Shown piece by piece: positions 33,884-48,190 of a stretch of DNA of 56,243 bases; positions within the stretch are counted from its first letter, which is position 1, and each line of letters opens with the position of its first letter. The translations under genes and the position numbers were made by a program. Source of the stretch: a virus; the IMG/VR virus record IMGVR_UViG_3300019458_000040, positions 1 through 56,243 of that record; one strand, 5' to 3'. Below the pieces are notes generated by a model. The model worked only from the letters and a program-made list of their open reading frames with translations. It was not told the DNA's origin and ran no database searches.

Positions 33884-34585
33884 GTGGCGGCGCCCGCGAT
33901 CCAGATCAAGCTCGACGCGAAGAGCAAGCGCTTCCTCAAGGGCCTCGAGGAGGGCTCGCAGCGCGCGAAGGTGTTCTCGTCGCTCGTGCGCGTCATGGGG
34001 CGGCGTGGTCTCTTCATCGCGGGCAACATCTCGAAGAACCTGCTCTCCGGCCAGCGCCTCGCGCGCCGGACGGGCTCGCTCGCGCGCTCGATCACGGCCG
34101 AGGCCGAACTCATCGGCGGTCTCCCCGGCGTCCGCGTCGGCGTCTTCCGCGGGCCGGCGCTCCAGTACGCGGGCGTTCAGGAGTTCGGGACGCAGGGAAA
34201 AAACCCCGAGTCGCCCATCCCCACGATCAAGCCGAAGCAGGCGAAGGCGCTCGCGATGTCCGTGGGGGAAGCGCTGACGCCGGCGGGCGTCCCGCGCTAC
34301 CAGTCGCCGCGCCAGTTCCCGGAGAGCCTCCGGTTCGTGCCGTTCCGCTCGCGGAACGTGATCGGGGCGCTCTACCCCGAGAGCGAAATCGAGGCCGCGG
34401 AGAAGGCCGCTCGCGCGCGCGGCGGGAAGGTGTCGCTCGAGAACGCGGAGGCGGCCTACCTTCTCCTCCGCGAGCTCGACCTCGAGCCGAAGGAGTTCCT
34501 CCAGGACGGGATGCTGAACGGGCTCCCCGCGCTCGCCTCGGACGTGGGCGACGACATCGTGCGGCAGATGCGGGAGGCGGGGTGA
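33884..34585 (+). CDS. HK97 gp10-like / virion morphogenesis tail protein
   Basis: 233 residues from GTG 33884. IQIKLDAKSKRFLKGLEEGSQRA, FIAGNISKNLLSGQRLARRTGSLARSITAEAEL, VRVGVFRGPALQYAGVQEFGTQG: the HK97 gp10/phage virion morphogenesis signature (RTGxLxxSI ... YxxxxExGT). A connector/neck component. The C-terminal third (about 150-233) is longer than usual and helical. Confidence 0.75.
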   Translation: MAAPAIQIKLDAKSKRFLKGLEEGSQRAKVFSSLVRVMGRRGLFIAGNISKNLLSGQRLARRTGSLARSITAEAELIGGLPGVRVGVFRGPALQYAGVQEFGTQGKNPESPIPTIKPKQAKALAMSVGEALTPAGVPRYQSPRQFPESLRFVPFRSRNVIGALYPESEIEAAEKAARARGGKVSLENAEAAYLLLRELDLEPKEFLQDGMLNGLPALASDVGDDIVRQMREAG

Positions 34586-35031
34586 TGGAAACCCGCAAGA
34601 GCCCGCGCCGCGTCGTCATGGAGAGTCTCCGCGATCTCGCCCGCGCGCAGCGCTCCGGCGCCTACTTCGTCAAGCGCGGCGACATCGTGTGGGCGACGTT
34701 CCCGTTCGATCGGTTCCCCCGCGCGATGGCGCTCATGGTCGACGTCATGTCGTGCGCGCCGACCGAAGGAGAGACCCACACCGCCATCATCCGCATCGAC
34801 GCCGCGGCGCAGATCCCGGACCGGACGGACCCGCCGGAGATCGACGACGGGATCCACGACGAATTGATCGACGACGTCGAGTGCGTCATCTACGGGCTCG
34901 GGCCGCTGAAGGACGATCGCGGCGACACCGTCGCCTATCGGATCGACCCAGAGAAGTCGGGGATCCGAGAGTTCCACGACGCCGGGCTCCGCGTTCAGGG
35001 CATCCACGCTCAGTTCACCGTGAAGTTCTAA
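34585..35031 (+). CDS. tail terminator-like / minor tail protein
   Basis: 148 residues; ATG 34585 chosen (TGATG junction, GGGAGG 8 bases upstream) over the GTG 3 bases before. VMESLRDLARAQRSGAYFVKRGD and ALMVDVMSCAP...HTAIIRIDAAAQI resemble tail-terminator proteins by size and position (between gp10-like and tail tube). Motif support is weak. Confidence 0.6.
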   Translation: METRKSPRRVVMESLRDLARAQRSGAYFVKRGDIVWATFPFDRFPRAMALMVDVMSCAPTEGETHTAIIRIDAAAQIPDRTDPPEIDDGIHDELIDDVECVIYGLGPLKDDRGDTVAYRIDPEKSGIREFHDAGLRVQGIHAQFTVKF

Positions 35032-35044
35032 GGGAGGAAGTGAC

Positions 35045-36127
35045 ATGGCTTTGGGCTTCCAGGACCCGTGGGTTTCCGGAACTCGCTTCCTCTTCAAGCG
35101 CGAGAACCAGGGCGCCACGCAGTTCCCGCTGATCGATCTCGGCGCGATGGATCCCGTGGGCCCCACGCTCACGGTGACGAAGATCGAGGCGAAGGACGGC
35201 GGCACGGGCCGCCTGAAGACGCTCGACGAGCGCGTGACGGACTTCGTCGAGGAGTACACGATCACGTGCCGGAATCTCAGCGTCGAGAATCTCGCGATTC
35301 TCTATCTCGCGAACCGGCCTTCGAGCGTGACGCAGAACGCGAACACGACGAAGACGATCCCGACGTCGCCCTCGACCGTCTTCATCAAGATGTTCAAGGG
35401 CGAGCTCGTGAAGCTCCACGACGACGACACGGCGAGGTCGCTCCTCTACAACTTCGACGCGATCGGCGGGCTCTACAACGGCACGGTCGCGTTCGCGACG
35501 CTGACCGCGATCTCGCGATCGGCGAAGACGCTCACGGTGACGGGCGACATCACGGCGAGCCTGACCCCCAACGACTCCGTCATCGTCGATCGCACGGGTC
35601 TCGCGAACGCGAAGAACTCGCGCTCCTACAAGATCGTCTCGTCCTCGTTCGGCGGCGGCAACACGACGATCGTCGTCGCGGACACGCCGGCCTCAGACGA
35701 GACGGCGATCTCGGACCAGGTCGTCTACGAGAACGGCGGGCTCATCTACAACCAGGGCACCGACTGGCTCCCGTACCGCGTCGATCACGGCATCATCCAG
35801 ATCACGGCCGGCAGCGCGATCGCCGACGGCGCGACGAACGTGACGGTGCGCTCGAGCCTCGCCGCCTACTCGGGCGCCCGCCAGATCAAGCCCAAGTCCG
35901 CCGCCGGCGAGATCCGCGGCGACGGCTTCTTCATCTTCGCACGCGGCAACAACGCGGAGGTCACCTACCGCGAGGCGCGCGTCGCCATTCGTCCGGCCTC
36001 GGCCGCGATCGGCGTCGACGACTACTCGACGGTGAGCTTCACGGTCAAGGTGCTGACGACGCTCGGCGCGGAGCAGCCCGCGGGCCGTCTCGTCCAGGCG
36101 ATCGGAGCCGTTCCCACGAACTCGTAA
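35045..36127 (+). CDS. major tail tube protein 1
   Basis: 360 residues, GGGAGGAAG upstream. GFQDPWVSGTRFLFKRENQG at the N-terminus; strand-rich with many Thr/Ser/Ala (FVEEYTITCRNLSVENLAILYLANRP; LRQIKPKSAAGEIRGDGFFIFARG region) and a C-terminal VSFTVKVLTTLGAEQPAGRL. Position after the connectors and before the chaperones identifies the tail tube. The central part (about 145-230) contains a strand-rich insert that may be an Ig-like surface domain. The next gene is a clear paralogue. Confidence 0.75.
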   Translation: MALGFQDPWVSGTRFLFKRENQGATQFPLIDLGAMDPVGPTLTVTKIEAKDGGTGRLKTLDERVTDFVEEYTITCRNLSVENLAILYLANRPSSVTQNANTTKTIPTSPSTVFIKMFKGELVKLHDDDTARSLLYNFDAIGGLYNGTVAFATLTAISRSAKTLTVTGDITASLTPNDSVIVDRTGLANAKNSRSYKIVSSSFGGGNTTIVVADTPASDETAISDQVVYENGGLIYNQGTDWLPYRVDHGIIQITAGSAIADGATNVTVRSSLAAYSGARQIKPKSAAGEIRGDGFFIFARGNNAEVTYREARVAIRPASAAIGVDDYSTVSFTVKVLTTLGAEQPAGRLVQAIGAVPTNS

Positions 36128-36157
36128 CGGAAAGAGCACTCGAGCAGGAGACTCATC

Positions 36158-37264
36158 ATGCCCATCGGATTCCAGGACCTCTGGGTCGCCGGCTCCCGGC
36201 TCCTCTTCAAGCGGGACGCGGTCGACTCGATCGATCAGCCGTGGGTCGACCTCGGAACGATCGAGACGTCGACTCCGAACTTCGCGGTCACCGCGATCGA
36301 CCTCAAGGACCCGGAGTCGGGCGTCCGGGCTCTGATCGATTCGCGCACGATCGAGCTCATCGAGAGCTACGACATCGCGTGCCGGAACTTCTCTCCTCGA
36401 AACCTCGCCATCCTGCTGCGCGGGAAGAAGGTCGAGACGTTCAGCCAGACGGAGCAGACGAACGCTTCCAAGGCCGTCACGCATCGCGTCTTCGCCGGGC
36501 AGCTCGGCGGGATCCGCGACACGGACGCGCTCACGCGTCTCTTCGCCCTGAAGAACGTCCACGGCGTGCACACGACTTCGATCGGGACCGCCACGGTGAC
36601 GGCGATCAACGCGCTCGGACCGAGCGCGAGCACGATCGTCGTCTCGGAGAACCTGTCGGGCGCGAATCCGGCGGTGGGCTCGTTCGTGCTGCTCAAGCCC
36701 GAGGGTCTCGCCTCCGGCACCGCTCAGGCGAACGCCGGCACGTACGAGATCATCTCGAAGGTGGGATCGGGCCCAACGACCCTCACGGTCCGCGAGGCGA
36801 TCGCGACGACGGAGTCGGGTCTCACCGGCGTCCTCATCTACAAGAACGCCGCGGGATCGGCGGTCAACGTCTTCGCCGGTCCGAAGAACCTCACGCCCGC
36901 CTGGAAAGTCCGGAGCCTGGCCGACGGCCTGATCTACGCCGTCAGCGGCGGCGGCATCACGGGCGACGGCGATCTCGTCATCGTCTACTCGACGGCCGAG
37001 GTCACGAGCGGCGCGCGGCTCATCCTGCCGCACACGCAGACGGGAGAGGTGCGGGGGCGCGTGCTCCTCTTCTACTCGCGCGGGACCTTCGAGGAGATCA
37101 GCGTCCGGGATGGGCGTGCCTCGATCACGCCCGTCGGTGCCACGGTCGCCGTCACCGACTACAGCACGATGAACTTCACGGTGAAGATGCTCACCGATGA
37201 CACGGCGTCGGATCCGGAGGGGCAGTTCCTCTACTTCAAGGGCGCTGTCCCCGTCCTGACGTAA
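36158..37264 (+). CDS. major tail tube protein 2 (paralogue)
   Basis: 368 residues. Same start pattern as its neighbour (GFQDLWVAGSRLLFKRDAVD) and same landmarks in the same order: 'IESYDIACRNFSPRNLAILL' against 'VEEYTITCRNLSVENLAILY', 'GEVRGRVLLFYSRG' against 'GEIRGDGFFIFARG', 'DYSTMNFTVKMLTDD' against 'DYSTVSFTVKVLTTL'. So the two genes arose by duplication and both keep full length. Either both build the tube or one has taken another role (tail completion or a special ring). Confidence 0.75.
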   Translation: MPIGFQDLWVAGSRLLFKRDAVDSIDQPWVDLGTIETSTPNFAVTAIDLKDPESGVRALIDSRTIELIESYDIACRNFSPRNLAILLRGKKVETFSQTEQTNASKAVTHRVFAGQLGGIRDTDALTRLFALKNVHGVHTTSIGTATVTAINALGPSASTIVVSENLSGANPAVGSFVLLKPEGLASGTAQANAGTYEIISKVGSGPTTLTVREAIATTESGLTGVLIYKNAAGSAVNVFAGPKNLTPAWKVRSLADGLIYAVSGGGITGDGDLVIVYSTAEVTSGARLILPHTQTGEVRGRVLLFYSRGTFEEISVRDGRASITPVGATVAVTDYSTMNFTVKMLTDDTASDPEGQFLYFKGAVPVLT

Positions 37265-37320: not shown

Positions 37321-37348
37321 GTTCCTTCCCGCCTGGAAAGGACGTTGG

Positions 37349-37798
37349 GTGTCGAAGAACGACGAAATCAGGGTTCTCTTCCCCGGCCGACCGATCGCGC
37401 TCTCGGGCTACGAGGCGACGGTCTACCCGATGGGGGTGAAGCACGTTCGGAAGTTCCTCGAACGCGTCCTCGCGATCGCGGACGCCATCGGGATCGTCGC
37501 ACGGCGGCCGGACGAGTCGGAGCGCCAGCACGTCGAGCGGATCTCGGCGGAGCTCATCCCGTTCGCGCTGAAGAACGCCTTCGACATCATCTCCGAGTGC
37601 GTGGTGCTCCCGGACGGCGCGAAGCTCGACGACGTTCCGCAGTGGGATCTCCCGCCGATCGTCGAGGCCTGGATCTACGAGAGCTTCGGCGAGGAGAAGA
37701 AGTGGCGCCCTTGGGTGGCCCTCCTGGAGAGCGCGCTGGCGCGATTCAGCGGGGGCGAGCCGGTCTCGATTTCGGAGATGTGGTCCAGGGTCTCCTAG
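37349..37798 (+). CDS. tail assembly chaperone gpG-like
   Basis: 149 residues from GTG 37349, GGAAAGGA upstream. IRVLFPGRPIALSGYEATVYPMGVKHVRKFLERVLAI; helical body; IVEAWIYESFGEEKKWRPWVALLESALARFSGG near the end. Location between tail tube and tape measure and the overlapping reading frame that follows identify the pair. It binds the tape measure during tail assembly and is not in the mature tail. Confidence 0.75.
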   Translation: MSKNDEIRVLFPGRPIALSGYEATVYPMGVKHVRKFLERVLAIADAIGIVARRPDESERQHVERISAELIPFALKNAFDIISECVVLPDGAKLDDVPQWDLPPIVEAWIYESFGEEKKWRPWVALLESALARFSGGEPVSISEMWSRVS

Positions 37799-38103
37799 CG
37801 GCTGGCCACAGCCTCGCCGACGTCTTCGGGCTCGAGCAGCCCGGCCTCCCGTACCGGGGCTTCACGGTCCCGCAGTTCTTCTTCTTCGCCGAGCGCGCGG
37901 AGCGCCTGAAGTCGACCGTGCTCATGAACGCGATCAGCTCGATGCGCGCGGCGATCGCGGGGACGCTGACGAAGGAAGGGGCGAAAGCGGTCGATCGGAT
38001 GCTCGCGGAGATGCGCGCGCGGACGGATTCCGAGGGCGTGGCGAGGGCGGAGGCAGCGGACGACGGATGGCCAGACGTCTCGGGCGAGACGGACGGCTTC
38101 TGA
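37349..38103 (+). CDS. gpGT-like chaperone made by -1 frameshift
   Basis: At GGGGGC (37751-37756) a slip back by one base joins RFSGG of the first frame to RAGLDFGDVVQGLLAAGHSLADVFGL of the frame below; this frame runs to TGA 38103 and contains PGLPYRGFTVPQFFFFAERAERL and MLAEMRARTDSEG. The second frame has no start of its own, as in lambda G/GT. The long form carries the T domain that links tape measure and tube protein. Expected product about 251 residues. Confidence 0.7.
37751..37756 (+). promoter_or_regulatory. candidate slippery site GGGGGC
   Basis: In the zero frame the codons are AGC GGG GGC GAG. After a -1 slip the next codon is CGA, which opens the T frame. A run of five G is the only slippery-like sequence between the end of the conserved G domain and the G stop at 37798. 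Confidence 0.55.
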
Positions 38104-42108: not shown

Positions 42109-43164
42109 ATGTCGCTTCAGCATCACGAAGGCTTCGAGCTCACCGTCGACCAGGCGTCCGCGACCCGACTCTACGGCACGGGGAACTTCACCCTCGGCGC
42201 CGGCGCTCTCTACAACCAAACGCCGGGCAGGCTGCAGGGTGCCTACTTCCGGGGCGGATCGGGCCTCTCGACGATGGCGCTCAAGACTCCGCTCATTGCC
42301 CAAGACGGCACCTGGGTCGTAGGAATGGGCCTCCGCGCGAACACCCCGACGTCCGCCCTCCAGCTCATCCGGCTCCTGGACAGCGGCACGCTTCAGTGTC
42401 GGTGCCAGCTCGCTCAGGTCGGTGCCGACAGTTACAAGATCCAGGTCGTCAACTCGCTCGGAAGCTCCGTGGGCGAGTCGGGCGAGCTGCAGCCGGACGT
42501 CTGGTACTACGTCGAATTCAAGACACAGATCGCCGACGTCGCCACATGGTCGCTCCGCGTCAACGAGGCGGTCGTGGCGAGCAGCACGAGCGACATGAAG
42601 GCGACGGCGAACGCCTTCGCGAACGAGATCGAGATTCGCACGCAGCACGTGGGCGGCGGCGGAGACAAGTGCGACATCGACGATCTCTACTTCGTCAACT
42701 CGCTCGCCGGCCAGCGGACCGATCTCCTCGGCGATTGCGTGATCGAAAAGCTCTTCCCGAACGCCGACGGCGCGACCATCGCGTGGACGCCGAATCCGGG
42801 ACCGACGCACTTCGACGCCGTGGACGACAGCGCCCCGGACGATGACACGACCTACGTCACCACGAACCAGAACAACGCCAAGGAGCTCTACCAGCACAGC
42901 GATCTCGTCTTCTCGGCCTCCGGAACGCCGATCCTCGGCATTCGCAGAGAGCTCATGCTGCGCCTCCTCTCGGCCGGGTCGCGCAACATCCGACTCGTCT
43001 ACCGGAATGCCGTCGGGACCGAGAACAACAGCGCGACGCTCACCTACACCGACACCGGCTACGCAACGAAGCAGATCATCAACGAGCGGAATCCCATCAC
43101 GGTCGCCGACTTCTCGGTGACCGAGCTCAACGCGGCGCAGTTCGGAATGGAGACGATCCCGTAA
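42109..43164 (+). CDS. LamG-like tail surface protein
   Basis: 351 residues. Residues 1-200 look like a concanavalin/LamG sandwich: HEGFELT, LGAGALYNQTPGRLQGAYFRGG, WVVGMGLRAN, LQLIRLLDSGTLQCRCQL, LQPDVWYYVEFKTQI, WSLRVNEAVVASS, CDIDDLYFVNS. Residues 205-350 are a second strand-rich part with DAVDDSAPDDDTTYVTT. Such proteins sit on phage tails and bind saccharides. Overlaps the next ATG by one base. Confidence 0.65.
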   Translation: MSLQHHEGFELTVDQASATRLYGTGNFTLGAGALYNQTPGRLQGAYFRGGSGLSTMALKTPLIAQDGTWVVGMGLRANTPTSALQLIRLLDSGTLQCRCQLAQVGADSYKIQVVNSLGSSVGESGELQPDVWYYVEFKTQIADVATWSLRVNEAVVASSTSDMKATANAFANEIEIRTQHVGGGGDKCDIDDLYFVNSLAGQRTDLLGDCVIEKLFPNADGATIAWTPNPGPTHFDAVDDSAPDDDTTYVTTNQNNAKELYQHSDLVFSASGTPILGIRRELMLRLLSAGSRNIRLVYRNAVGTENNSATLTYTDTGYATKQIINERNPITVADFSVTELNAAQFGMETIP

Positions 43165-44105
43165 TGGCGAACGGCTTCACGCACGAATCGATCCCGGGGA
43201 ATTTCGACGGCGTTACGTTCGTCAACCGCGACGTCGCGGCACTCGACGACAACTCGCTGCAGATTCTCGACGGACGGATCCCGACGCATCCCTGGTTCAC
43301 GCTCAACGTCGCCATCTGGCCCTCGGCGAACGACGCGCTCAACAACCGCCCGCATCTTCGGTTCAACAACGATTCGGGTGCCCGGTACGAGGCGAGCTTC
43401 CGAGCCTTTGTCAATACTTCGGACAGTCCGCCTGCGACCGAGGCGCCTTCGATCAACCACGTCAAGGACCAGACGGAGATGCCACTCCTCCCCGTCGATG
43501 CGGCGTTCAATCTTTCGAGCACCGACATGGTCTACACGGCGCGGATCGACGTGATGCGGATGGACGCCATCGAGGAGTACCGCGTCTTCTGCCACTGGAG
43601 CCGCGGTCGATCGAGCGCGAGCATTCACCCGCGCCACGGCTTCATGGTGGGGAACTGGATCGGGATCGGCACGAAGGGCATCTCGGGGATCGACGTGTAC
43701 CTCGGAACCTCCGGGAAGATGGCCGCCGGGGCCTACCTCGAAGGCTACGGGATGCAGAGCTCGGTTCTCGGCGGAGGCTACGTCTACAAGAGCGGCGAGC
43801 TTCCGACGGGGAAGATCTGGGTCGATGGCCGTCCGATGTACCGCGACGTCTTCACGAGCCTCACGCTCCCGTCGCCCGGAAACTCGACCAACTTCACGCT
43901 CCCGACGACCGCCTTCGACATGCCCACGTCGCGCCTCACGGAGTTCTGGGTCTACAAGACCTCGCCCTCCAACGAATCCCACCGCCCGACGGACCTCCAG
44001 CTCAAGTTCACGACGACGCAGCTCGTCATCACGTCGCCTTCCGGCGGCACGAACTGGTCGAGCTACACGGGCGTCGGCGTGTGGGAATACGCGAAACAGA
44101 TCTAG
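43164..44105 (+). CDS. tail surface protein A of a tandem pair
   Basis: 313 residues, strand-rich. FTLNVAIWPS, YEASFRAFVNTSDSPPATEAP, MDAIEEYRVFCHWSRGRSS, HPRHGFMVGNWIGIG, and a C-terminal ITSPSGGTNWSSYTGVGVWEY. A clear paralogue of the following gene. No enzyme motif; located between the tape measure and the tip, so probably part of the distal tail or fibres. Confidence 0.6.
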   Translation: MANGFTHESIPGNFDGVTFVNRDVAALDDNSLQILDGRIPTHPWFTLNVAIWPSANDALNNRPHLRFNNDSGARYEASFRAFVNTSDSPPATEAPSINHVKDQTEMPLLPVDAAFNLSSTDMVYTARIDVMRMDAIEEYRVFCHWSRGRSSASIHPRHGFMVGNWIGIGTKGISGIDVYLGTSGKMAAGAYLEGYGMQSSVLGGGYVYKSGELPTGKIWVDGRPMYRDVFTSLTLPSPGNSTNFTLPTTAFDMPTSRLTEFWVYKTSPSNESHRPTDLQLKFTTTQLVITSPSGGTNWSSYTGVGVWEYAKQI

Positions 44106-44121
44106 CAGGCGGGATCGATCG

Positions 44122-45078
44122 ATGACGGACGTCGACTTCGCCGTGCAGGCCCTCGACTCCTACAACCTCATAGCCCGGCGCGTCGCCGCCGTTGGCGAAT
44201 CGGAGATCGTTCTCACCGATTCCCGCATGGCGAATCACCGCCAGCTCTTCGTGAACGTCATGGTCTATCCCGCCCCGAACGCGGGGAACCAGGGAACGGA
44301 GGTTCCCTTCCTCTGGTTCAACCTCGATCGCTCGGCGGCGTACGAGGGAATGCACCGGGCCTACGTCAACACGGCCGACTCGCCACCGTCGACTGAGGAG
44401 GCGACGTCCTGGCACCACACGAACGCGCCGCGCTTGCGGCTCGTGCCGGGTGGATCTTCGGCGTTCGTGTTGGCCGCGGGCGAGGTCTTCACGTCGTGGA
44501 TGTTCCTCGAGCAGCAAGATGCCGTCGAACAGTACCGCATCCACGAGTGGTGGGCGATCGGTGAATCTGTCTCCGGCGGGACGAACAAGCATCCCCGTTA
44601 CGGACATCTCGCCGGTCAGTACATCGGGAGCGTGGCGGGAAAGAAGATCTCGACGATCGGGCTCGTCCTGGCGCCGTGGGGCCGCATGGGGCAGGGCTCC
44701 GAGCTCAGCGTCTATGGCCTCCGGACGCCGCTCCTCGACGGATCCTTCGATTACAACGATCAGAAGAGCGCCTCCACGACGGGGATGTGGGCGCCGACGT
44801 CGAAAGCGATGTTCCGTCGCGTGATGAAGGTGTCTCCACTCCCGATACCGGGGAGCACTCAGCCGTTCTCGCTCGCCGACACGAGCTTCAACATCGGAAC
44901 GATGAACATCGCCGAGGTCTGGATCGTCGATGAGAGCGAGGGGATTTCCGAGGCGCCCTCCCAGGGCATCGCGTTCTCGATCAGCGGCACGATGCTCAAC
45001 GTCGCGAGCGCCTCCGGCGGCAAGGACTGGTCGGGATACGACTACGCCTACGTCGTGCTGACCTGGGCGAGGCCGTAG
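44122..45078 (+). CDS. tail surface protein B of a tandem pair
   Basis: 318 residues. The same landmarks as gene A in the same order: LFVNVMVYP, YEGMHRAYVNTADSPPSTEE, QDAVEQYRIHEWWAIGESV, HPRYGHLAGQYIGS, VASASGGKDWSGYDYAYVVL. The variable stretches between them differ strongly, consistent with receptor-type diversification. Starts 16 bases after gene A. Confidence 0.6.
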   Translation: MTDVDFAVQALDSYNLIARRVAAVGESEIVLTDSRMANHRQLFVNVMVYPAPNAGNQGTEVPFLWFNLDRSAAYEGMHRAYVNTADSPPSTEEATSWHHTNAPRLRLVPGGSSAFVLAAGEVFTSWMFLEQQDAVEQYRIHEWWAIGESVSGGTNKHPRYGHLAGQYIGSVAGKKISTIGLVLAPWGRMGQGSELSVYGLRTPLLDGSFDYNDQKSASTTGMWAPTSKAMFRRVMKVSPLPIPGSTQPFSLADTSFNIGTMNIAEVWIVDESEGISEAPSQGIAFSISGTMLNVASASGGKDWSGYDYAYVVLTWARP

Positions 45079-45079
45079 A

Positions 45080-48000
45080 GTGCCTCCGCTCCTCGTCAAT
45101 CTCCGGCCGGAGGCGAACTTCCGTCCCCCGGATTTGTCCGTCATCATCGAGGGCGGAGCCCCGACGCACTTCGCCGCGGTCGCCGACGATTGGGACGACC
45201 CTGGAGATCCGCCGGGGCCGGATCTGACGCCCGACACGTGGATCGGGACCGAGACGCGATTCAACTCGACCGACAACTCGGGCGGCTATTACGTCGGCGC
45301 GTGCGAGGACCTTCGGGACGAGTTCGGCGTCAGCGTCCGTCCGGCGAGCTTCGCGGACCACAAGATCCGCATCCTGTATCGCAATCAACACGGCACCCCG
45401 ACCTCGACGGCGCGCTTCTTCTTCGGCCTCGCGCGCGGCGGCCAGAACGTCTACATGTTCAGCCGGTCCCCCACGCATTCCAACTGGCTCGCCGAGGAAG
45501 TCGACGTGCCCGTCGATCTCATCTCGCTTCATCTCGGAAGCCTGGGCGACTACAACAACATCAACGTCTTCTGCTACGCGGACGGGAACAATCCGCCTCA
45601 GGCGACGGAAGCATGGGCGCTCAACTGCGCGCACATCTCGCTCCTCGTTCCGGATCCGACGACAGACCGAGTCACGCGTCACGGCGTCGAGGTCCTCGCA
45701 AAGCACGTCCTCCAAGTGCGGGCGACGCGCCACGCGGCCGAGGCCCTGACGAAGCGCGAGGGCGTCCAGGTCACTCGCCACGGCGTCGAAGTCCTCTATC
45801 GCACTCCGATCCGAGCGACGCGCTTGGGTGTCGAGATCCTCGCGAAGTTTCGGCAGGAGATGCGGGCGACGCGTGTGGGCGTCGAGGTCCTCGCGAAACG
45901 GCAAGGCCAGGAGTCGCGAGCAACCCGGCTCGGCGTCGAGGTTCTTGCCAAGGTGCAGGGTGCTGCGGCGACGCGGCTCGGGACCGAGGTCTTGAGCAAG
46001 AGGCAGGGCGTTCAGGCGACGCGGCACGCTGTCGAAGTCCTCTCGAAATACCTCTCCGGGAGCCTCGAGATCCGTGCCACACGCGTGGCCGTCGAGGTTG
46101 TCTCGAAGATCCCTTTCGCCCGCGACACGGTCGAGCCGCTCTCGTTCCCGATCGTGCCGCCGAACCTCCTGCGCGCGGACTGGGGTGCGGAACTCACGGT
46201 CGAGAGCGCGTACTCGACGGACGTCACGCGCGCGGCGACGACCATCGCGGAGGAACGCCGGGCCCTCGTCGATCGACCCTACCGGACCTTCGGTGTGCGC
46301 TTCGTCGGGCAGGACAGCGAGCGCGTGCTCCAGGCGACGATGAACCTCGCGCGCCGCGGCCACACGCGGACGATCCTGCCGATCTACCCGGATTTCGCGG
46401 TCGTGAAGAAGCTCATCGCACCGGACTTCATCGGCTGCGATCCGCTCTATCGCCGTTTCCACCGCGGGCAGCGCGTCGTCATCCACACCTGGAGCGGGGT
46501 GAACCCCGGGCTCGTCGAGTACGCGGTCGTCCGCAGCGTCAACGCCGAGGGGCTCGAGCTCGTCTCGCCCCTCGCGGGCAGCTTCCCGAAGGGCTCCCGC
46601 GTCTATCCCCTGGTCGACGTCGAGATCGCCCTCGAGGCCGGCCTCGAGAGCCTCGTCTCGGACGCGCTCCGGCAGACGCTGACCCTCGCCGAGGTCATCG
46701 GGAAGAGCGCTCTCCCGGCGCTCGCCACCGGCGCGCCGCCCGAGCCGCACCACGTCGACGGCTTTCCGATCCTCGTCCTTTCGCCGGACTGGGCGAGCGG
46801 TCTCACGAGTCGTGTCGTCCGCCACGGATCGCAGATCGGCTCCGGCCGCGGGCTTGTCACCGGCCTTGCCGGCGCGCGGCCGGTCTTCGTTCACGAGGCG
46901 AAGCTCAAGTTCCTCAATCGCGCGGCCTTCTGGCGCGTCCTTCGGTTCTTCGATTCGCGGCTCGGCCGCGCGCGCACGTTCTGGACCGTCTCGCCCCAGG
47001 CTCTCTTCGTGCCGACGGCGATCCCGACTTCGACCACGATCGACGTGAAGCAGTCCGGCAACCTGTCCGATCTCCAGGCCTTTCTCCAGCACATCGGGAT
47101 CGTCCGGAGGGACGGCTCGGTCACGATCCACAAGGTGAGCTCGATCGTTGTTCAGGGATCCGACTGGCGCGTCACCGTCATCGAGCCGCACTCGCTCTCG
47201 GGCGTGGGCGAGATCCGGCGTCTCACGTCGGCGCACTTCGGCCGGTACTTCGAGGACAGCCTGCTCGAGGAGTGGTCGACCGACAACGTCTGCGAGTCGC
47301 GATTCCAGACCATTGAGCTTCTCGAGGAGAAGGCGGTCACGATTCCAGACGTCGTCGAGGGCCTTACGGTGACCGGCCCGGATTCCGTGACGGGCCTCTT
47401 CGCTTGGTTCGATTCGGGTCTCGGCACCTTCACGAGTCCGAGCGACATGGCAGGCCCTACGATCCTTCGGACGTCGAAGGCCGTGCCAGGTGACGCCGTC
47501 TCCGCTTGGGACGACGTTCGGACTCCCGCCGGCGGGCTTCCCTCTCTCGCCGGTGCCGCCCTCGCCGCGGACCGGCCGAAGCTCGTGTTCATGGAGAACC
47601 CCGAGCTCAACAACAACCGCCGGTCGATGCGATTCGACTCGGGCCCGCGCTGGTTCCGGTTCCGCACGAGCGACGCGAGCGAGAACGCGGATCCGTTTTG
47701 GGACAACACGCTCGGCCTCACGGTCTTCCTCAACGTTCGGCTCACTGCGGAGCAATTCCTCGAGCGCAAGTTCGTCTGGCGGTCCGGGATTCTCGAGTGG
47801 GACTCGCTCGTCGTACGACTCTACGAGAACGACGGCTCGGGCGCAGTCACGCTCACGATGCCCCCGGGCTGGGCCTTGGGCTCGACCCTCCGCACGCTCG
47901 CGCTCGTGTGGAAGCCGAACGACTACATCCGGCTTTACCGGAACGGCGGCGCGCCCGTCGTCGAGCAGACGGCTCAGAAAATCATCGATCTCCCGACGGT

Positions 48001-48190
48001 CGCTCGCGTCACGGACATCTGCAAGTTCGCAGGCGACGTGACCTCGCAGTCTGACGAGTTCGCGATCGGGCTCGACCCGTTCCTCAACTCCGCGATCTTC
48101 TATCGACGCGCGCTCAACAACGCGGGGCTCAACGGCGTGGGGACCTTCCTCGCCAACGCGTTCGGCACCCCGTGGACGACGGTAACCTGA
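45080..48190 (+). CDS. 1036-residue distal tail protein with nine internal repeats
   Basis: GTG 45080. Order: strand-rich N-terminus (1-195); nine TRxGVEVLxK repeats (about 198-347); two related distal-tail-like halves, the first with RRALVDRPYRTFGVRFVG and ARRGHTRTILPIYP, the second with RPVFVHEAKLKFLNRAAFWRVLRFF and RARTFWTVSP (about 355-700), resembling DUF2460/Dit proteins; and a LamG-like C-terminus (about 770-1030: LFAWFDSG, VSAWDDVR, RRSMRFDSGPRWFRF, LGLTVFLNVRL, LRTLALVW). The repeats suggest an extended beta structure or linker, the end a sugar-binding tip. Followed directly by the hub gene. Confidence 0.65.
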   Translation: MPPLLVNLRPEANFRPPDLSVIIEGGAPTHFAAVADDWDDPGDPPGPDLTPDTWIGTETRFNSTDNSGGYYVGACEDLRDEFGVSVRPASFADHKIRILYRNQHGTPTSTARFFFGLARGGQNVYMFSRSPTHSNWLAEEVDVPVDLISLHLGSLGDYNNINVFCYADGNNPPQATEAWALNCAHISLLVPDPTTDRVTRHGVEVLAKHVLQVRATRHAAEALTKREGVQVTRHGVEVLYRTPIRATRLGVEILAKFRQEMRATRVGVEVLAKRQGQESRATRLGVEVLAKVQGAAATRLGTEVLSKRQGVQATRHAVEVLSKYLSGSLEIRATRVAVEVVSKIPFARDTVEPLSFPIVPPNLLRADWGAELTVESAYSTDVTRAATTIAEERRALVDRPYRTFGVRFVGQDSERVLQATMNLARRGHTRTILPIYPDFAVVKKLIAPDFIGCDPLYRRFHRGQRVVIHTWSGVNPGLVEYAVVRSVNAEGLELVSPLAGSFPKGSRVYPLVDVEIALEAGLESLVSDALRQTLTLAEVIGKSALPALATGAPPEPHHVDGFPILVLSPDWASGLTSRVVRHGSQIGSGRGLVTGLAGARPVFVHEAKLKFLNRAAFWRVLRFFDSRLGRARTFWTVSPQALFVPTAIPTSTTIDVKQSGNLSDLQAFLQHIGIVRRDGSVTIHKVSSIVVQGSDWRVTVIEPHSLSGVGEIRRLTSAHFGRYFEDSLLEEWSTDNVCESRFQTIELLEEKAVTIPDVVEGLTVTGPDSVTGLFAWFDSGLGTFTSPSDMAGPTILRTSKAVPGDAVSAWDDVRTPAGGLPSLAGAALAADRPKLVFMENPELNNNRRSMRFDSGPRWFRFRTSDASENADPFWDNTLGLTVFLNVRLTAEQFLERKFVWRSGILEWDSLVVRLYENDGSGAVTLTMPPGWALGSTLRTLALVWKPNDYIRLYRNGGAPVVEQTAQKIIDLPTVARVTDICKFAGDVTSQSDEFAIGLDPFLNSAIFYRRALNNAGLNGVGTFLANAFGTPWTTVT
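45671..46121 (+). repeat. nine coding repeats TRxGVEVLxK
   Basis: Copies: TRHGVEVLAK, TRHAAEALTK, TRHGVEVLYR, TRLGVEILAK, TRVGVEVLAK, TRLGVEVLAK, TRLGTEVLSK, TRHAVEVLSK, TRVAVEVVSK, spaced by 5-9 variable residues. At DNA level the core is about CACGCGGCTCGGCGTCGAGGT with variable spacers, so units differ enough to show age. Confidence 0.9.

Follow-up and report, generated by a model that had tools for sequence, protein, structure and literature searches.

Tandem tail-tube paralogues in an uncultivated phage and its relatives suggest more than one kind of tube subunit in some phage tails

Here we present two adjacent genes of an uncultivated tailed phage that, on strong evidence, both encode genuine major tail (tube) proteins of the YSD1/chi/JBD30 type. 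The window analysed, 56,243 bases long, is a virus record from IMG/VR. Together with the one to four tube genes that related viruses carry at this slot, the pair suggests that in some phages the tail contains several kinds of tube subunit, not one. For the window, the explanation that we consider probable, judging from sequence, is that both proteins are built into the virion tail tube as different subunit types. Two neighbouring genes within a single late block would each supply a structural subunit, and both subunits would assemble around the tape measure protein to give a single tube. Each would keep a ring-forming beta-sandwich core (D1) together with its own version of an outward Ig-like domain (D2), and the outer domains of the two copies would bind or stabilise different things.

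The two genes (Table 1) are separate open reading frames on the same strand, with one tube core each and a stop codon and 30 bases between them. Their products align end to end, with 122 of 372 positions identical (33%, E 4e-58). An initial annotation had proposed two tandem full-length tail-tube paralogues, a proposal borne out by the reading frames, this alignment, profile and fold matches, synteny and the relatives; the landmark motifs that it had listed (GFQDxWVxGxRxLFKR, CRN.S..NLAIL, GE.RG....F.RG and DYST..FTVK) are present in both proteins. The same virus is also represented by a second contig, from a different metagenome (IMGVR_UViG_3300019487_000145), which carries tube 1 and tube 2 intact, at 98.8% and 99.6% DNA identity, respectively. 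Given the alignment, the motifs, the PHROG matches and this second contig, the pair is neither a product of chance nor a fault of a single assembly. A 710-aa ORF at 35068-37200 and the long ORFs of the minus strand appear to be artefacts, out-of-frame readings created by high GC3.

Table 1. Tube genes, their domains and the adjoining tail genes of the window
Feature	Position	Strand	Basis
Neck / tail completion protein	33884..34585	+	PHROG 5, E 0.002; synteny
Probable tail terminator, directly upstream of the tube slot	34582..35031	+	By position; homologue in the same place in relatives
Tube paralogue 1, 360 aa, YSD1/chi/JBD30-type major tail protein	35045..36127	+	ORF, paralogy, PHROG and PDB profiles, fold match
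Tube 1 hinge loop, residues ~41-60, predicted inter-ring contact	35165..35224	+	Alignment with the JBD30 plan
Tube 1 D2, residues 98-278, inserted in the core	35336..35878	+	Alignment, approximate
Tube paralogue 2, 368 aa, YSD1/chi/JBD30-type major tail protein	36158..37264	+	ORF, paralogy, PHROG and PDB profiles, fold match
Tube 2 hinge loop, residues 41-60	36278..36337	+	Alignment with the JBD30 plan
Tube 2 D2, residues 98-286	36449..37015	+	Alignment, approximate
Tail assembly chaperone	37349..37798	+	PHROG 1442, E 4e-4; synteny
Tape measure protein, 1323 aa	38133..42104	+	Position, length, homology across relatives

Assignment to the YSD1/chi/JBD30 type was made through profiles and structure prediction. 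PHROG 807, 'major tail protein with Ig-like domain', matches tube 1 (5e-12), tube 2 (7e-12) and all 15 family members scanned. When a profile of 15 family members was compared with the PDB, the YSD1 tube protein YSD1_22 (6xgr) was matched at 3e-5 and the chi tube (8vhx) at 2e-4; the value for the JBD30 tube (8rk3) was a non-significant 0.27. AlphaFold models were obtained with pLDDT 75.5 and pTM 0.51 for tube 1 and with 78.9 and 0.54 for tube 2. In Foldseek searches with both models the YSD1, chi and JBD30 tubes ranked at the top, with the Mystique and SPR tubes among the best matches, at probability 1.00. Global TM-scores by query length were low (0.33-0.47 overall, with maxima of 0.47 for tube 1 and 0.34 for tube 2), so the placement and orientation of domains in the models are unreliable. 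For both tubes, the models and their matches predict a beta-sandwich core carrying an inserted outer domain. This is the plan of the JBD30 tube protein, in which the core bears a ring-joining hinge loop and an inserted Ig-like decoration domain (PMC11445458). In the YSD1 tube, inserted domain 2 latches neighbouring subunits within the same ring, and a stabilising role has been seen (PMC7385642); what tube Ig-like domains do has also been called unclear, adsorption being a proposed role (PMC9022992). A Pfam search gave no convincing match, and tblastn found no credible homologue of tube 1, tube 2 or the tubes of three relatives among 50,697 phage records, nor of tube 2 in PLSDB plasmids. Pattern scans of GTDB genomes found no tube homologue, and for this reason we assign no host.

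The genes also occupy the position expected of tube genes, lying between the terminator and neck genes and the chaperone and tape measure genes. The order MCP, adaptor, neck, terminator, tube (one or more), chaperone, tape measure is conserved in the window and its relatives wherever the contig covers those parts. The probable terminator gene had no PHROG match, and no sheath-like PHROG was found among the window tail genes scanned, a subset of the window ORFs. At the end of the chaperone gene, the -1 frame over 37345-38103 (+) is open to 38103 and protein-like after ~37755, with a C GGG GGC run near 37750; judging from these features, it resembles the programmed frameshift commonly found in the tail chaperones of siphophages. 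Further downstream, a second tandem paralogue pair is found in the distal tail region (43164-44105 and 44128-45078, both +), with 31% identity over 296 aa (E 7e-47) and no PHROG match for the pair. It is followed by a tail assembly protein gene (PHROG 1082, 45080-48190, +), the product of which has short imperfect repeats of the type ATRxGVEVLxK at residues ~190-330; TRF reported a 48-base unit at 45926-46025.

Relatives were found by scanning IMG/VR with tube, capsid and neck profiles. Tube genes were counted over the loci and, for most relatives, over whole records, all of them contigs and not certified complete genomes. Among the 22 viruses, the window included, a single tube gene is present in 17 (L007, L008, L009, L010, L014, L015, L019, L023, L024, L029, L055, L061, L065, L067, L068, L073 and L096), two in three (the window, L006 and L013), three in one (L011) and four in one (L030). 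The value for L013 is a minimum, as its contig stops ~130 bases past copy 2. The earlier statement that most siphoviruses carry one tube gene holds inside this group, and since 17 of the 22 contigs do with one, a tube does not require a second copy. The largest array among the viruses found is that of L030 (5001-8726), with four tandem tube genes in the order A-B-A-B. A near-identical contig end, L031, carries the beginning of the same array. In L067 (9737-21417), ~9 kb separate the MCP gene from the terminator and tube genes, unlike in the other relatives examined. One early match, L003, was discarded as an antisense coincidence over a capsid gene.

To follow the history of the copies, trees were built from full-length tubes and from D1 only. 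The L011 trio groups by genome in both trees (99/98), as does the L006 pair (100/99 full-length, 93/91 D1), and trees of the neighbouring genes join L030 with L006 (100/100) and place L011 elsewhere. Because the copies of L011 and L006 group by genome and the neighbouring genes separate L011 from L030 and L006, duplication has been recurrent. From these trees there were probably at least three origins, one in L011, one in the L006/L030 lineage and one in the window and/or L013; the L006/L030 lineage may itself hold more than one. The two window copies are recovered as sisters with weak support (56/63), and a duplication shared by the window and L013 is neither supported nor excluded by the trees. 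Within L030, copy 1 pairs with copy 3 (100/97) and copy 2 with copy 4 (100/100), and a clade of copies 1 and 2 is rejected (p-AU 3e-6); by its phylogeny, this array is a duplicated A-B pair.

Neither window copy looks decayed, and from their sequences both look functional. Each keeps 32 of the 37 family-conserved positions, defined as columns with 80% conservation or more across 21 further members of the family (which themselves keep 28-37). Additionally, each is preceded by a Shine-Dalgarno-like site, and their GC3 values are equal and the same as those of the neighbouring genes. Decay of one copy, which the initial annotation had named as a sign that would count against its proposal, was looked for in the sequence and not seen. 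Between the two strains, tube 1 differs by 8 synonymous and 5 non-synonymous changes; tube 2 has 1 and 3, a ratio that might suit a redundant duplicate on its way to being lost, with the other copy serving as the tube, although the numbers are too small to show constraint or its absence. The dN/dS of the window pair was set aside, as counts are unreliable at the depth of this pair and at ~93% GC3. Copy number does vary among relatives, as might suit such a leftover, yet frame, Shine-Dalgarno-like site and conserved residues are intact in both copies at a divergence as deep as that between different viruses, and all three L011 copies are under strong constraint. We consider this reading very improbable.

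Domain limits, which are approximate, were set from an alignment of 23 homologues read against the JBD30 and YSD1 domain plans; by this alignment, D1 of tube 1 comprises residues ~1-97 and 279-360. The L011 copies are 81-84% identical in D1 and just 31-35% in D2, as against 78% and 70% for a comparison pair from different single-copy viruses (L007 and L019). L011 deviates from the between-genome trend by about -4 s.d., a descriptive value as the pairs are non-independent. For all three copies the D1 dN/dS is 0.06-0.08, with dS of 1.7-2.9, near saturation. Since recent gene conversion would erase synonymous differences, the L011 copies are old and their cores are under purifying selection. Domain swapping between viruses as the source of the divergent D2s is unsupported, for the L011 D2s still cluster by genome, weakly (84/72). 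In the window pair, D1 is 40% and D2 24% identical, with no such excess (z -0.35); both domains have diverged. The hinge loops are 30% identical in the window pair, 85-95% in L011 and 15% between L030 copies 1 and 2. From these comparisons there may be two kinds of array: one, in L011, of interchangeable cores with differing D2s, and another, in the window and L030, in which ring-to-ring contacts also differ. The initial annotation had raised either a mixed tube or a specialised second ring. The near-identical cores and divergent outer domains of L011 fit a mixed tube; in the window, the diverged hinge suits rings that cannot be interchanged no less well than it suits free mixing.

Several lines of evidence favour both window copies being tube subunits: end-to-end paralogy, the profile matches to YSD1_22 and chi, the fold match, the retained conserved positions, the Shine-Dalgarno-like sites and equal GC3, and, among the relatives, the varying copy number in the same slot, the purifying selection in L011 and the A-B-A-B array of L030. 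As to arrangement, for the window we think separate kinds of ring, or zones, somewhat likelier than subunits mixing freely in a ring, since divergence of the ring-joining hinge loop is no smaller than that of the remaining core.

A stricter arrangement would be an alternating heterohexamer, A3B3, in which the two proteins alternate within each ring as the unfused counterpart of T5 pb6 and P74-26 TTP. Fused tube duplications provide the precedent, L030 is arrayed as though the A-B pair were the unit, and its A and B hinge loops differ. However, ordinary unequal recombination can also copy an A-B unit, the three near-equal cores of L011 are ill-suited to strict two-way alternation, and a complete D1 and D2 are retained in each copy. 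We hold A3B3 to be quite unlikely, a judgement that overlaps with that on our preferred reading, A3B3 being one form of co-assembly. Alternatively, one paralogue could form the tube and the other a few specialised rings at the tip or the head end. Terminal tube-like rings are used by many machines, and contractile systems have tube-initiator paralogues, T4 gp54 and gp48 with gp19 and Afp5 with Afp1; the window copies, moreover, differ in the hinge as well as in the outer domain. Against this, end proteins are partly accounted for by the terminator-like gene upstream and the tail-tip genes downstream, single-copy relatives manage without such a ring, three- and four-copy arrays would require several special rings, and both copies are still full-length and of the major-tube type. 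A specialised ring is, in our estimate, an unlikely explanation, and co-assembly of both proteins as tube subunits remains the one we prefer.

Tape measure length was compared with copy number in an exploratory way. The 13 complete single-copy tape measures span 750-1146 aa and are each exceeded by the three measurable multi-copy ones (1323 aa in the window, at least 1517 in L006 and 2063 in L030); those of L011 and L013 are cut off. An exact rank test gave p 0.002 (12 single-copy values, L096 left out), with only ~2 independent contrasts because of the sister relationship of L006 and L030. In L073, which has one tube gene, the tape measure reading frame is open and reaches at least 1255 aa. 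The association of longer tape measures with multiple tubes was seen post hoc and is offered as a lead only. Tentatively, there might exist a class of sheathless tails that are copolymers of two to four gene-encoded subunits sharing a ring core and differing in their Ig-like outer domains, the set of genes having grown repeatedly alongside tail length; we would put this at somewhat less than an even chance.

The usual description of a siphophage tail tube is that of a polymer built from a single subunit, or from two forms encoded by one gene. Within the open-licence literature, which excludes most subscription journals, our searches turned up no siphophage described as having unfused tandem tube paralogues. 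A slot with one to four full-length tube genes, repeatedly duplicated, is a ready-made series in which to ask if tubes can be copolymers of defined composition, and it bears on the purpose of the outer Ig-like domains and on the origin of fused double-domain tubes such as that of T5. The closest known proteins, YSD1_22 and the chi tube (6xgr, 8vhx) and JBD30 gp44 (8rk3), are alike in fold, in having a core, hinge loop and inserted Ig-like domain, and in their place in the tail operon, but the published tubes are each of one protein, whereas the window has two paralogous genes and its relatives one to four. T5 pb6 and P74-26 TTP, in which duplicated tube domains are fused and form trimeric pseudo-hexameric rings, share with the window a duplicated tube domain and, probably, a sheathless tail; there the domains lie in one chain, whereas the window has separate genes with a full subunit each. 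In SPP1, gp17.1 and gp17.1* are two tube-subunit forms generated by a frameshift (PMC8718954), and, as in the tube proposed for the window, two forms occur in one tail and differ in an outer Ig/FN3-type domain; SPP1 does this with one gene, whereas in the window the second form comes from a separate full-length ORF that has a start and a Shine-Dalgarno-like site of its own, and the cores have diverged. Finally, the Bacteroidales BIS Tube1 and Tube2 (PMC7394362) are likewise a case of a tail-like machine with more than a single tube gene, but that machine is contractile and sheathed, whereas the window has a siphophage-type tube block with recurrent tandem duplication at one slot.
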